Below are positions 58,433 through 64,000 of a DNA stretch of 64,000 bases, in pieces. Below the pieces are notes generated by a model. That model saw only the letters and a program-made list of their open reading frames with translations, did not search any database and had not been told where the DNA came from. The translations under genes were made by a program, and so were the position numbers. Every line of letters begins with the position of its first letter. Positions within the stretch are counted from its first letter, which is position 1. This stretch comes from Gracilaria domingensis (Eukaryota; Rhodophyta; Florideophyceae; Gracilariales; Gracilariaceae), in NCBI GenBank assembly GCA_022539475.1, contig VCMS01000141.1, forward strand, positions 62,001-126,000. Reading direction: 5' to 3'.

Positions 58433-59432
58433 GGCGAACTGGAAACCGATCCCTTCAGCGCGAAGAAGCCTCTTGGGTGTTGATGACACCGATCAGTCTC
58501 ACCGGATCCGTTAAGCGTTCTTGAAAACGTCGAAACAATTTCTGCACAAGAGAACTAAGGGTTCTCGATCAACCTTCCTCTTTGAAAGGCAACAAAATCA
58601 GCAGTACAATGATGATTAACGATCTTCCACAGCAAAAAGGTGAATTACCTGCTCGTATCGATTAACGAGAAGAGCACTGTTCCACTCAACGAGGCGATCT
58701 AAAGCGCTTCTTGCTCACTTCGCTCGCCGATTTCAAAACGACTGCTTGGCGGGGATTAACGTCGATACGCACCCGGGAGCCATTGGGGGTGGGATCAAAC
58801 TGCCCCTGCGCGCGCATTGGAATCCGCTGCACTATTTGATACCGTGAGAAAAAATAAAAAGTTTTTTTGATTTTCGAAACTGCCATTTTGTCATTTATGG
58901 TTCTGTCGCACACCACATCCGGGGGCCTAGGGAGAATCTAACATTACACACTGTGAGGCAAATGCCACAACGCCGGCGAATCCTCGCCCGCTACGGGGGT
59001 GATCCTCGTCAGCTAGTCCCGTAAGGATCCGCCCAATAGCGCTTCGACAAGTAAACTTTCCTTACAAACTAAGCACACTATTGGTCGGATCCTTCCGGAA
59101 ACAGACATCACCCGGGCTCCGCCAGCACGCCTATACGACGTGAGCTCATCACGTCAACGTAAGTCAGACATTGAAAGCGAAGAACAAACGAGCTCTGTAA
59201 AACGCTTTCAGCTCAAACGTTTTTAGCTCAATTTTTTTCAGCTCATAAGCGCATATCGTGAAACGGTAGCGGTTACTCACGCATCGTTAGATACTCAGAC
59301 CAGTTCTTCTTCTCGTCGTAAACAGACTGCACCTATAACTAACATATTAATGTACGATAAAAAAATGCAATGTGCTGACCTCACGCTGTCAAAACCTCCG
59401 CAAAATGAAGTTGACCGACACATCTTAAGTCT
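58433..59432. other. Intergenic region with fold-back repeat
   Basis: Contains the imperfect inverted repeat at 58992-59116 and a cluster of TCAGCTCA/TTAGCTCA words (about 59210-59245). A 76-codon minus-strand ORF (58686-58916) is basic and unrecognised. The left end of the decayed MULE is probably near here, but I could not identify its terminal inverted repeat. Confidence 0.5.
58992..59116. repeat. Imperfect inverted repeat (fold-back)
   Basis: CCGTAAGGATCCGCCCAATAG (first 20 bases CCGTAAGGATCCGCCCAATA, from 59020) pairs with CTATTGGTCGGATCCTTCCGG (from 59078; first 20 CTATTGGTCGGATCCTTCCG), and GGGGGTGAT with ATCACCC outside them. Loop of about 40 bp. Identity is lower than in the other palindromes, suggesting an older element. 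Confidence 0.7.
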
Positions 59433-60758
59433 TTGGCCATTAGTAGTATAGGATCAAACAAAGATGCTTATTTTGGAAAGAACGTTTTGACGCGATTTCT
59501 ACCTTCAAATGTGAGCAAAGATCAGGTCGTCACACAGATTAACGACTCTCTGCGTCTTGTACAAGCCAACTTAAATCTCAATATTGACCAAAGCCCTGTG
59601 TCTGGACGTATATATTTGATGGTTTTGTGGAAGCATTTAATACTGGTTGTAGTAAACAAAAGTGACGACAAAGAAAGATTGCCTGCATCGTTTATTACCT
59701 CCTACGAAGAAAGTAAGTGATTTTATAACACGCTATTGACTGTAGGTGTGCACGAACTAGAACCAACATGTTATACGGTACTTGTTTCCGCAGAGTTTTG
59801 TGTAATTATTGGCACTCTTTCTGATCCCTTAGAAAAGAAAGGCAAGAAGACATTTATTGACGGGTATCTCTCCCAGTTGCGCTCTTAACTGGCGCAGAGG
59901 ACATTTTTCTCTCCGGAACCCATCAAGGCCATTTTAATTCTTCTGTGCATCAATGAAAATTATTGGAAATATATGGTGGCCTATTTAAAGCGGTAAAACT
60001 GCTGAATTCTGTATTACGGTGATACTCTGAAAACGGATCCTTCGGGTGGCAGGTGAAGATTTGTCATTGCTGTCATAGAGCTTGCATTGAATAGTAGATT
60101 CGAACGGAAGATTTCTACAGGAAACTACATGTTAGACATACTCAAGTACGAGAAGCAGCAAGATTTATATAGTTGTGGAGCATATGTGTTATCGTGCATG
60201 TCCTACTTTAGCCGCACAAGAGGACGCCTTCCAAAAGGGACATATGAAGGAAAATATAGTTCTGAACTGACAAAGCGTTATCGCTGGAGTGCTGCAGAGT
60301 GTCGCCTCAACATTGTCATCGCCGCCAGACATAGAGGGCTCCCAATTGCAGATGAATTTCTCATTAATGAAATACATCGCAGTAATCGCGAGGAACGCTC
60401 TGCTCGACGTCATCAACGTATCCTTTCCGAGACAATTCGTAGCTCGAAGGGAACAGCTCATGTCAGACGTAGGGAAGGAGGAGGAAAAATCTCAGCTACC
60501 GATAACTACGCTGATGTTCTAGGTGATGCCCTAATGGATTCAGATCATAATGTCGAAATCACCCGAAAGGTTGTTAAGGACAATACATCCTTCACAGCCA
60601 GAAAGGATATTCGGAGATCCTTAACCAGATCCTCATCAGCCCCGGTGAGACAAGGAGATGGAGTCAATGGCAGTGACAAGAAGTACACTAATCCTTTTGT
60701 AAGAAGGAGACGGAATCCACGAATGAGAAACAGCTATCTATGCGGAGTGAAACTTTAG
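59433..60758 (+). pseudogene. Degraded Ulp1-like cysteine peptidase of a MULE
   Basis: The central frame from about 60087 to a TAG at 60756 encodes LKYEKQQDLYSCGAYVLSCM, matching the C-terminal active-site block of Ulp1/SENP peptidases (Q-x-(N/D)-x-x-(D/S)CG-x-(F/Y)-V). Upstream, in different frames, come INENYWKYMVAYL (about 59950-59985), which resembles the HWxLxVID block with His changed to Tyr, and an earlier segment at 59433-59720 (SGRIYLMVLWKHL). A possible GTAAGT..CCGCAG intron (59713-59793) connects parts, but stops remain. The C-terminal about 120 residues are basic and Ser-rich. Ulp1-like genes are carried by some plant MULEs, and a MULE transposase follows 0.4 kb downstream on the same strand. 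Confidence 0.6.
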
Positions 60759-61192
60759 AGGATCTTCGCGGATATTTCTTTCAGTTGATGAAGGAAGGCT
60801 ATAGCTACAGTGTGCATCTACGTTGACCTATAGCTCGCGTTGGGAAGTACAGAGTTACTACCAGAGTTCGATGCCTAAAATATAAGGTGTATCCAAACGG
60901 ATCGGGATGTAGAGCAGGAATCGTCGCAAAGTTGTCCAGAGATTTACGGCCGTGGGATATCAAGGGGGAGAACTCTGACAACCACGAACGCGTGGCTACC
61001 ACGACTGCTACCGTTAATAAGAGAGTCGCGGCCATTCGGAGCTAGATTAAAAAGTGTTGTCCTTCTACACTTCAAATCCCCTATATCCATTACACCCCAA
61101 AACGAGGATCCTCAAAGGGCAGGACTCAGAGAGAAGATTCTGCTACCAGCGAGCAGAGACAGGGAGGCTCTGTGTTGAGCTCGGGTGGACAG
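60759..61192. other. Spacer between peptidase and transposase parts
   Basis: 434 bp. A frame open from about 61047 leads into the transposase ORF; the first ATG is at 61193. No other gene is seen. Confidence 0.45.
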
Positions 61193-61420
61193 ATGGATGG
61201 AAAGGACAGTTTGGAGAGGGAGATAACGGAGATCAGAGATAGTGATCGTCAGGATTTTATGCAAGATCCCAGTGCCATACGAAATAATCCCCCGGCGAGC
61301 AGCTTGATGCCAGATTCTAAAGCATTGGCTTCTGTGGCCATAACTTGGACTGTAGAGGAGGAAGTTCTGGCTGAAGGTAACGGAAACGAGGATCTCACTG
61401 ACGATTGTCAAGTTTTACAG

Positions 61421-61527
61421 GTGAACGTAAGCTGAGTCCATTCCATCATGAGTCATGGTGTACAATATCTTTTCCATTATATATAAGTCTTCTAACCCTC
61501 TCTTTTCACTACCTATCCTACTAATAG
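61421..61527 (+). other. Inferred intron in MULE transposase
   Basis: GTGAACG at the donor and TACTAATAG at the acceptor, phase 0, joining CQVLQ to EKLVDETD. Unspliced, the exon 1 frame ends 15 bp later (TGA at 61433-61435). Confidence 0.65.
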
Positions 61528-61575
61528 GAGAAACTGGTCGACGAAACAGATCGGCAAGATAATCATGCGGCTTCG

Positions 61576-61665
61576 AAGGAAGATACTGGCGAAAGCGCAG
61601 GTGATAGTAGCTGCAATCGGAAGGAAGATACTGGCGAAAGCGCAGGTAATAGTGGCTGCAATGCG
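61576..61665 (+). repeat. Two tandem 45-bp repeats inside the transposase leader
   Basis: Units 61576-61620 and 61621-61665 both start AAGGAAGATACTGGCGAAAG and encode KEDTGESAGDSSCNR and KEDTGESAGNSGCNA. In-frame duplication (15 codons) in the acidic N-terminal leader. Confidence 0.92.
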
Positions 61666-64000
61666 GCGGAGGATGACGTCGATGATCGGGACCAAGAGTA
61701 TTCCTTCAAACATGCTTATGAGAAGGAGCAGTGTGTGCGGGATGGTTTCTCTGCCTACTTTTCTTCAGTGCAAGGCACCAGTGAGGATGAGACACTCAAA
61801 CATCTACAGTACATATCGGAATGGTTCGGGTATTGTTTGAATATCAGAGACTCGGTGTACACGGAAAAACAAGGAGGTAGGGAGCTGAAGAGAGGATCGC
61901 TGGTTTGTTCATTGCGAAACGACAAACAGTTCAAGTTTTCGTACCAGTTCAAACTCTACAGAGTGAGGATCACAGTGAATGAAGCGGGTAACAGAGCCGG
62001 GGAGTGGGGTTTCCGTTTAGATCTGTCTAAAGCACATCATAACCATTCCCCTAAGCGTACCGTGTTTCATCGCAAACTACCACCGAGAATGGAGGTAGAA
62101 GCGTTTCATATATACGCCAGTCTACGCATGCAGTACTCTGACATACTACGCGTGTTGTAGGATAAATACAATATCAAAGTCGATAAGACTCTGTTCAGGA
62201 AACGCCTAAAGTACCTATCTGATGCGAGGAATCCAAAGGACAAAGAGTCCTTTCGACTCTATGAGAACCTTCTAAAGTTGAAGGCCGAGAAGTCGAGGAA
62301 TGAGGTGTATTGTACAACCAACGCACAAGACAATTTACATTTCGTGTCATGGTCATTTGAGGAATGGATCCTCGACTATGAGCGCTTCGGTATAGTACCA
62401 GGGGTTTCAATTGACTGCAAGGCAGTGGCAAATCGTTTCGGAATACCGCTGGTAACCATAAATGGGAGAGATAACCATGGAAATGTCACTACGTTCTTCA
62501 TGGGATAAATTCCCAACGAGATAACCGAGAGCTTCTGCTGGATCCTAGTTTAAACGAAGTTTAAGGACTGCATGTCCATTTCCCCGTCATGCTTCGTCCT
62601 TGACCAAAGCAAAGCTTGTTTTAATGCTCTCCGTATGATCTTTCCCAAATCATATCTAACTTACGATGATTGGCACTTAAACAAGAATCAGGCCTGCAAT
62701 ATACCTCGTTGGTGATCAAATATTCATAAGCCGGAATGGAATGACGCAATGCAAGCTGACGTATATGAATTGCCAGGAGCTCCCACAATTGAGGTGTTCA
62801 GACGACGACGCGGCCACTTCGACACAAAGTACTTCTCCAATTTCAATCAACCCGCTCCGAAATAGTATAAGGAGCTGTGCCATGATTGCCCCACAATGAT
62901 AATCCTATGCTACAAGCTTGTATATCTCCCGAAGAGATTTCTATTCCAAGGAACGGGCTACACAGAGTCATCAAATTACCGTTATAAAAAGTTGATTCTC
63001 GGTCGCCGCATTCCTCTGTCAGAGGTTCCTGTAGAGATGAACATGATAACTCTCCGCCTGAAAGAAGAGCGAAGAGAAAGAAACGCTGCCGACCACACCG
63101 CAATCTCAAACAAACTTGCGACAGCTCAACTCCCTCTTCCACCCAAATACAGAGAAAATCTTGCTTCTCGGATCACGGCATTCGCTCTGAAGAAGTTTCT
63201 CGATACAAGCGTGAAGTGAGCACCATTCTATACTGTATCAAACGTTTCCATTCCACGATGTGGTGATACGGATTGGCGTATGTTTGAAATAGATCCCGAG
63301 GATCTGAAAATCGACTCAGACAACCTCGTTGCCATCCTCACTATCAATCGAATCCCAACGCGTTCCAATACAATTGAGACACAACATATCGTTCTCTACA
63401 CCCCTGAAGAGGATCCCAAGACGCTAGCTGCATACTGCACATGCCCCCGTTTTTGTTCAGACGGGTTTCCATGCTCCCACGTCACGCGAGTTGGAACGGT
63501 ATACTCTGAGTTATGCCAGCGCTGGTCGGACCTGCCGCAAGTTGCAGGTCACAGATTTCGGGTGGAGAATCTCTGGCACCCATATTGGTTCAGAGATCAG
63601 AAGACATGGACGAAGGAACACATCCTACATTTGCGAGCGGAGATGGGCTCCATTGGAAGCCAGGTTGCAGTGGAAATTGAGCAGCTTCGCAGAAGAGAAG
63701 GATCAGCATCAGATCCTCATCCGAGTGAAGTCCAGCAGCTTCTTGATGGGAAATCGTTAGATGAATTTCTCGACGATATAGTCACGCAGCGCAAAAGCGA
63801 TATTCAAAAGTATACATCGTGGGCTGCCTGCCGTGCACTTATCGACCAAATGCAGCATGTCGCTGATGGAAATGGTGGCGAGGCGCTAAGGGGTCTCAAA
63901 TTATACCTTGAGAACGGTTTGGCGCTTATCAACACCGGAGAGATACCGACTACTGACGATAGAAAACATCCATATCCTTCCATGCGCGCTCATCGGGATG

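Follow-up and report, generated by a model that had tools for sequence, protein, structure and literature searches.

Peptidase domains of the Ulp1 type (family C48) accompany Mutator-like element (MULE) transposases in Arabidopsis, maize, rice, melon and grapevine, and such elements have been reported from hydra and lancelet (PMC2528002, PMC13317346, PMC2836005). For lancelet, MULE transposases could not be confirmed in the sequences of an earlier report (PMC6446971). KIUs are VANC genes with an Ulp1 domain, and the VANC proteins of such elements direct sequence-specific loss of DNA methylation (PMC13317346); DUF1985 and DUF287 occur in VANC proteins according to PMC5735166, whose available text does not mention Ulp1. 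Here we analyze a window of 64,000 nucleotides from the red alga Gracilaria domingensis (C141:62001-126000 of a 77.9-Mb assembly; C-numbers denote contigs, and positions past 64000 continue the window numbering), which carries a decayed MULE copy with an Ulp1-type half. With a probability of roughly 0.6, we read it as a dead member of a cut-and-paste MULE family, hereafter lineage A, whose elements end in long terminal inverted repeats (TIRs) and have one gene running from Ulp1 to a SWIM finger, with a peptidase that would be held on DNA and lessen silencing.

Lineage A resembles the Kaonashi/KIU elements of Arabidopsis VANDAL in being a MULE with an Ulp1-type (C48) domain. A preliminary description of this DNA likened the pairing to that of Kaonashi-type (KI-) MULEs, but lineage A is not a member of that group: PMC2528002 describes KI-MULEs as non-TIR elements whose ULP gene is inverted relative to mudrA, whereas lineage A has TIRs of 208-235 bp, and its Ulp1 part precedes the transposase on one strand (in 28 of 41 clusters, joining being confined to same-strand matches) and apparently in the same protein. 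In melon, rice and grapevine, Ulp1 likewise occurs with MULE transposases, also in TIR and Jittery-like elements and in either orientation (PMC2528002), but the grapevine ULP is downstream of the transposase frame, while that of lineage A is upstream and joined to it. The red-algal MULE-Cc groups 36 and 38 (Dupeyron 2019) share with lineage A a SWIM finger, one open reading frame and terminal repeats (192-640 bp), together with a 9-bp duplication in group 38 (PMC6446971, Table 1). Group 36 is annotated there as having "Various inserts, potentially host derived"; the main text makes no mention of Ulp, protease or SUMO. Hydra Ginger1 also has an Ulp1 domain in the same protein as the transposase, but its transposase is of the Gypsy-integrase type, its Ulp1 domain is C-terminal and it belongs to another superfamily (PMC2836005). 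Plant CACTA proteins with Tnp2 and ULP1 were found by database search by the authors of PMC2528002.

Our literature searches, with limited coverage of subscription papers, turned up no account of red-algal MULEs that carry Ulp1, and neither an upstream Ulp1 fusion with its own predicted DNA-binding domain nor two lineages side by side was found in print. The red-algal case, the apparent built-in upstream fusion and the two lineages in one genome thus seem to be new; the Ulp1-MULE pairing itself is already known. The proposed occurrence outside land plants stands for this alga but loses its novelty, since Ulp1 in Mutator elements had been reported from hydra and lancelet (PMC2836005). The guess that the DNA came from a red alga agrees with 14 phycobilisome-linker matches in the assembly: 4 lie on C680, presumably the plastid contig, where a single 878-aa frame holds three of them, and the remaining 10 are found on other contigs.

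Recurrence and boundaries of the element

Three pieces of the window protein, used as genome-wide queries, yielded at least 37, 37 and 42 matches. When same-strand matches up to 16.5 kb apart were joined, 28 of the 41 resulting clusters held Ulp1, HNH and SWIM parts, always in that order and on one strand; the others comprised Ulp1 with HNH (1), Ulp1 with SWIM (1), HNH with SWIM (3), Ulp1 alone (3) and SWIM alone (5). By chance, the 3 kb preceding a given domain match should contain only about 0.0007 Ulp1 matches of like orientation. Seen from the transposase, a window-type Ulp1 part lies upstream at 28 of 51 MULE-domain places (at two of them 12-14 kb away), a C48 domain lies downstream at 8, and 15 have neither within the limits used.

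Two copies, C7:122945-129437 and its twin on C98, consist of a common 6,493-bp unit (99.77% identity) set in unrelated flanks, with both parts inside. Accidental neighbors are ruled out by these TIR-bounded twins together with the recurrence. Long TIRs, which most but not all MULEs have, measure 208-235 bp and are present in five of seven copies whose flanks were examined, including a perfect repeat of 225 bp in C7 and repeats of 210 bp in C30 and 208 bp in C6. Self-comparison found no terminal repeats in C41 and C269; 71 bp near the C41 end match the window's left repeat, reversed. Exact 9-bp duplications, a length within the ~8-11 bp typical of MULE target sites, adjoin the ends in four of five copies examined (C7, C98, C30 and C6). 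The window copy (51.8 bits) and C7 (E = 1.3e-12) both exceed the cut-off for the MULE domain PF10551, and C30 scored 27.4 bits against a cut-off of 27.6 in one search and passed it in another. The composite MULE first proposed for this locus is thus borne out by terminal repeats, 9-bp duplications and genome-wide recurrence of both parts: the pair is found in 28 of 41 clusters, and the C7 and C98 units each hold the two together.

Gaps of 9.5-14.3 kb separate the parts of six lineage A copies (C121, C135, C140, C21, C29 and C22:959438-975867), which make up five of the 28 complete clusters plus one of two C22 elements. C121 and C135 exceed the usual spacing by almost the same amount, ~10.37 kb, as if the same kind of nested element had inserted. 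The element fragment in the region C269:7200-16500 is bounded exactly by two pieces, one of them reversed, that adjoin at ~73141 in C141 (71939-75406); this discontinuity may reflect a rearrangement or an assembly fault.

The window copy itself extends beyond the interval 59433..64000 first assigned to it, as tips common to both TIRs push its limits to ~58930-64661, with the right end outside the window. The right TIR partner, C141:126418-126652 (64418-64652), measures 235 bp and is 91.9% identical to the left one. Probably the target-site duplication is an 11-bp direct repeat, whose copies are set 7 and 4 bases outside the TIR tips, unlike the 9-bp duplications that abut four other copies. 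The Ulp1-type active-site block noted earlier, KQQDLYSCGAYVL, is present at 60057-60758, with protease homology from 59526 in the same, stop-broken frame. Since the catalytic His is retained in C41, the nearest fully covered relative, its loss is private to the window copy. The transposase frames span 61528 to 64278, and their SWIM finger and catalytic region were correctly recognized. The "FAR1-like domain" ascribed to the transposase rests on its HNH motif, and Pfam FAR1 matches none of 12 homologues; a better supported FAR1-type domain, which had gone unmentioned, sits in the Ulp1 half.

Table 1. Parts of the decayed lineage A copy, in window coordinates
Feature	Position	Strand	Details
11-bp direct repeat, left copy CCACATCCGGG	58913..58923		partner ~64666-64676; exact match
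Left terminal inverted repeat	58930..59179	+	tip GGGAGAATC at 58930-58938; 235-bp aligned core 58945-59179
Decayed Ulp1-type peptidase part	59311..60758	+	catalytic His replaced by Tyr, with Asp, Gln and Cys retained; frame broken by several stops; from family alignment and fold comparison
FAR1/WRKY-GCM1-like predicted DNA-binding domain of the Ulp1 half, with following linker	60740..61396	+	2 stops; from homology to C49 and family model
Putative phase-0 intron, GTAAGC...TAG	61427..61527	+	101 nt; would join Ulp1 half to transposase half; from sequence
Transposase half, first open piece	61528..62157	+	HNH-type N-terminal domain 61753-62124; no Met ahead of the domain
MULE catalytic region, stop-interrupted	62179..63081	+	PF10551 match 62428-62688 (C141:124428-124688); 2 stops
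C-terminal piece with SWIM zinc finger PF04434	63220..64000	+	finger ~63406-63483, above cut-off; frame continues to 64278

In the right flank, remnants at 65089-66600 resemble a pogo/CENP-B-type DDE transposase, judged by eye, and an imperfect palindrome of ~128 bp lies at 66732-66859.

Gene structure and the peptidase half

Intact relatives hold, within one TIR-bounded unit and on one strand, an Ulp1-type peptidase, a FAR1/WRKY-GCM1-like domain, a linker, an HNH-type domain, the MULE DDE domain and the SWIM finger, in that order. C7 has two overlapping frames, one of 807 aa with Ulp1 and the first DNA-binding domain and one of 959 aa with HNH, DDE and SWIM, and in C30 every domain falls within a single 1,764-aa frame. 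A frame-restoring intron beginning with GTAAG, 68-101 nt long, with 83 nt in C7, and always in phase 0, fits 10 of 16 junctions scored, those 10 representing about six independent groups (C72 was left unscored). A usable donor-acceptor pair of any kind occurs in 11 of the 16, and the phase matches in 12 of 19 donor-acceptor pairs, where chance would give one third. Of 23 copies, 9, some of them decayed, have no Met ahead of the HNH domain in the second frame. The Met directly after the C7 acceptor is an unlikely start, because its codon is not conserved (ACG in C56 and C16, ATA in C121). These sequence features strongly indicate that Ulp1 and transposase form one gene for one protein of ~1,750 residues, interrupted in most copies by one short intron of phase 0 and continuous in C30; most lineage A genes would then be spliced. 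The peptidase and transposase, initially described as lying 0.4 kb apart, do share a strand, but they are better read as one broken gene than as two separate ones.

The catalytic His, Asp, Gln and Cys are all present in 23 of 29 copies, dead copies included. The family alignment and the predicted fold place this His-Asp-Gln-Cys active site within a CE-clan fold, as in Peptidase C48/Ulp1-SENP; Pfam C48 matches 10 of 13 family members (best E = 4.5e-5), the first member being under the cut-off. The best Foldseek match of the Ulp1 model is XopD, a plant-pathogen effector that is a SUMO protease with a DNA-binding part. XopD is, however, a bacterial effector and has no transposase. In the fold comparison, SENP and Ulp1 rank above adenovirus-type proteases, and the deNEDDylase NEDP1 scores almost equally; the lineage A peptidase may act on SUMO or on a related modifier.

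The Ulp1 half is also predicted to bear a WRKY/FAR1-type DNA-binding domain of its own. Homology of this domain to the HNH domain is unsupported (hhalign probability 1.7%). In the 807-aa C7 protein, no Pfam family appears at E <= 1, the VANC-type DUF1985 and DUF287 included, a search by which distant relatives could be missed. Motifs resembling SUMO-binding sites occur in 12 of 15 linkers, with patterns that were picked after inspection and that match shuffled linkers in 9-43% of cases each, several linkers being sisters; they were not found in the linkers of the window copy, C30 and C159. These motifs may serve as a lead only. The host genome gives 21 SUMO-like protein matches, six of which are PF11976 repeats arrayed in tandem within a 479-aa frame at C5:319197-320549.

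Co-inheritance, a second lineage and alternative explanations

Between C7 and C56, the ratio of nonsynonymous to synonymous differences (pN/pS) is 0.23 for Ulp1, 0.17 for the first DNA-binding domain and 0.71 for the linker, compared with 0.92, 1.17 and 1.10 for the dead sisters C56 and C16. The C7-C49 comparison is saturated (0.49), and C30 and C6 differ by few changes (omega 0.52 for Ulp1, 0.86 for the first domain). Ulp1 and DDE identities correlate across the 25 copies with both parts (r = 0.94; none of 2000 permutations as high), down to ~25-40% identity. The pairing is therefore old and was kept through the diversification of the family, which within this genome supports an ancient association over recent capture. 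When Ulp1 domains of the host and of the elements were placed in one tree, the 13 lineage A sequences grouped together (100/100) at the end of a very long branch. Since the host sequences do not form one clade and the placement of lineage B (described below) is unsure because of its long branch, the tree does not single out a source for either Ulp1. Further C48 proteins that do not adjoin MULE domains (C481, C30:205313, C59 and others), with near-identical pairs or sets in C481 and C30, C359 and C521, and C211, C333 and C405, are possibly other repeats or uncollapsed haplotypes.

At the 8 MULE-domain places with a downstream C48 domain, PF10551 is followed by PF02902 after ~2.3 kb. This distant second MULE lineage, lineage B, includes C326:39137-42367, C172, C17, C137, C191 and C21, and six of its copies are 98-100% identical in Ulp1, which suggests that it was probably active recently. 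In C326, frame lengths and positions put PF10551 and PF02902 in one 1,483-aa frame; the lineage B Ulp1 part has a weak Tudor-like match (E = 0.15). Lineage A queries do not find lineage B, nor the reverse, at E <= 0.001. Because the order is opposite and mutual matches are lacking at that threshold, we infer that lineages A and B are independent unions of Ulp1 and MULE; a common origin followed by rearrangement is a possible alternative.

Each lineage A element might instead encode two proteins, an Ulp1 regulator like VANC/KIU of VANDAL MULEs and a separate transposase, from their own promoters or alternative starts. A Met ahead of the HNH domain in 14 of 23 copies, the different frames of the halves in most copies and the separate Ulp1 gene of plant Ulp1-MULEs (PMC13317346, PMC2528002) all fit such an arrangement, but it is made rather unlikely by the phase-0 junctions, by a Met that is not conserved and by the uninterrupted frame of C30. 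That the CE-clan protease is a maturation enzyme, cutting its own polyprotein to release the transposase as adenovirus-type proteases do, would be compatible with the fused gene. It appears distinctly improbable, as SENP and Ulp1 outrank the adenovirus-type proteases, the protease is at the opposite end in lineage B, and no conserved cleavage-like motif was seen in the linkers by eye, no dedicated test having been run.

The least probable explanation, to which we give hardly any weight, makes the Ulp1 part a passenger, a functionless transduplicated host gene fragment as in Pack-MULEs. MULEs do often capture gene pieces (PMC2528002), and the window copy is dead. A passenger fragment is, however, disfavored by the conserved catalytic residues, by purifying selection between mobile lineages, by the co-inheritance of Ulp1 and transposase and by a very deep divergence from host Ulp1 genes.

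Possible role of the element-borne peptidase

In the favored one-gene reading, the first DNA-binding domain would hold the peptidase on element (or target) DNA. As a built-in part of the transposase, the peptidase would also reach every site to which the transposase binds. The tethered enzyme could then remove SUMO, or a modifier related to it, from proteins of chromatin or of repair or from its own transposase, leaving the element less silenced and the transposition complex able to work. The benefit may be anti-silencing, by analogy with VANC/KIU (PMC13317346, PMC5735166), or help to transposition and repair (PMC2836005). The predicted DNA-binding domain within the protease half slightly favors anti-silencing, and a role of the peptidase in SUMO-linked silencing, as raised in the preliminary description, is plausible.

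More tentatively, and with clear doubt about the whole, we speculate that the element is a MULE with a built-in chromatin opener, in which a DNA-tethered protease for SUMO or a related modifier is fused to a DDE enzyme through a linker with SUMO-binding-like motifs and serves anti-silencing. Such a device would have arisen twice in one red alga, with the domains in opposite order, and would parallel the VANC/KIU factors that plants have as separate proteins.

Ulp1-type domains recur in unrelated transposons, where a role in transposition or repair has been suggested for them (PMC2836005); the plant KIU elements suggest anti-silencing. Because the apparent fused form is under purifying selection, includes a predicted DNA-binding domain and exists in recent copies that are nearly identical, these proposals become testable with one protein, and the two lineages in a single genome provide a natural comparison.
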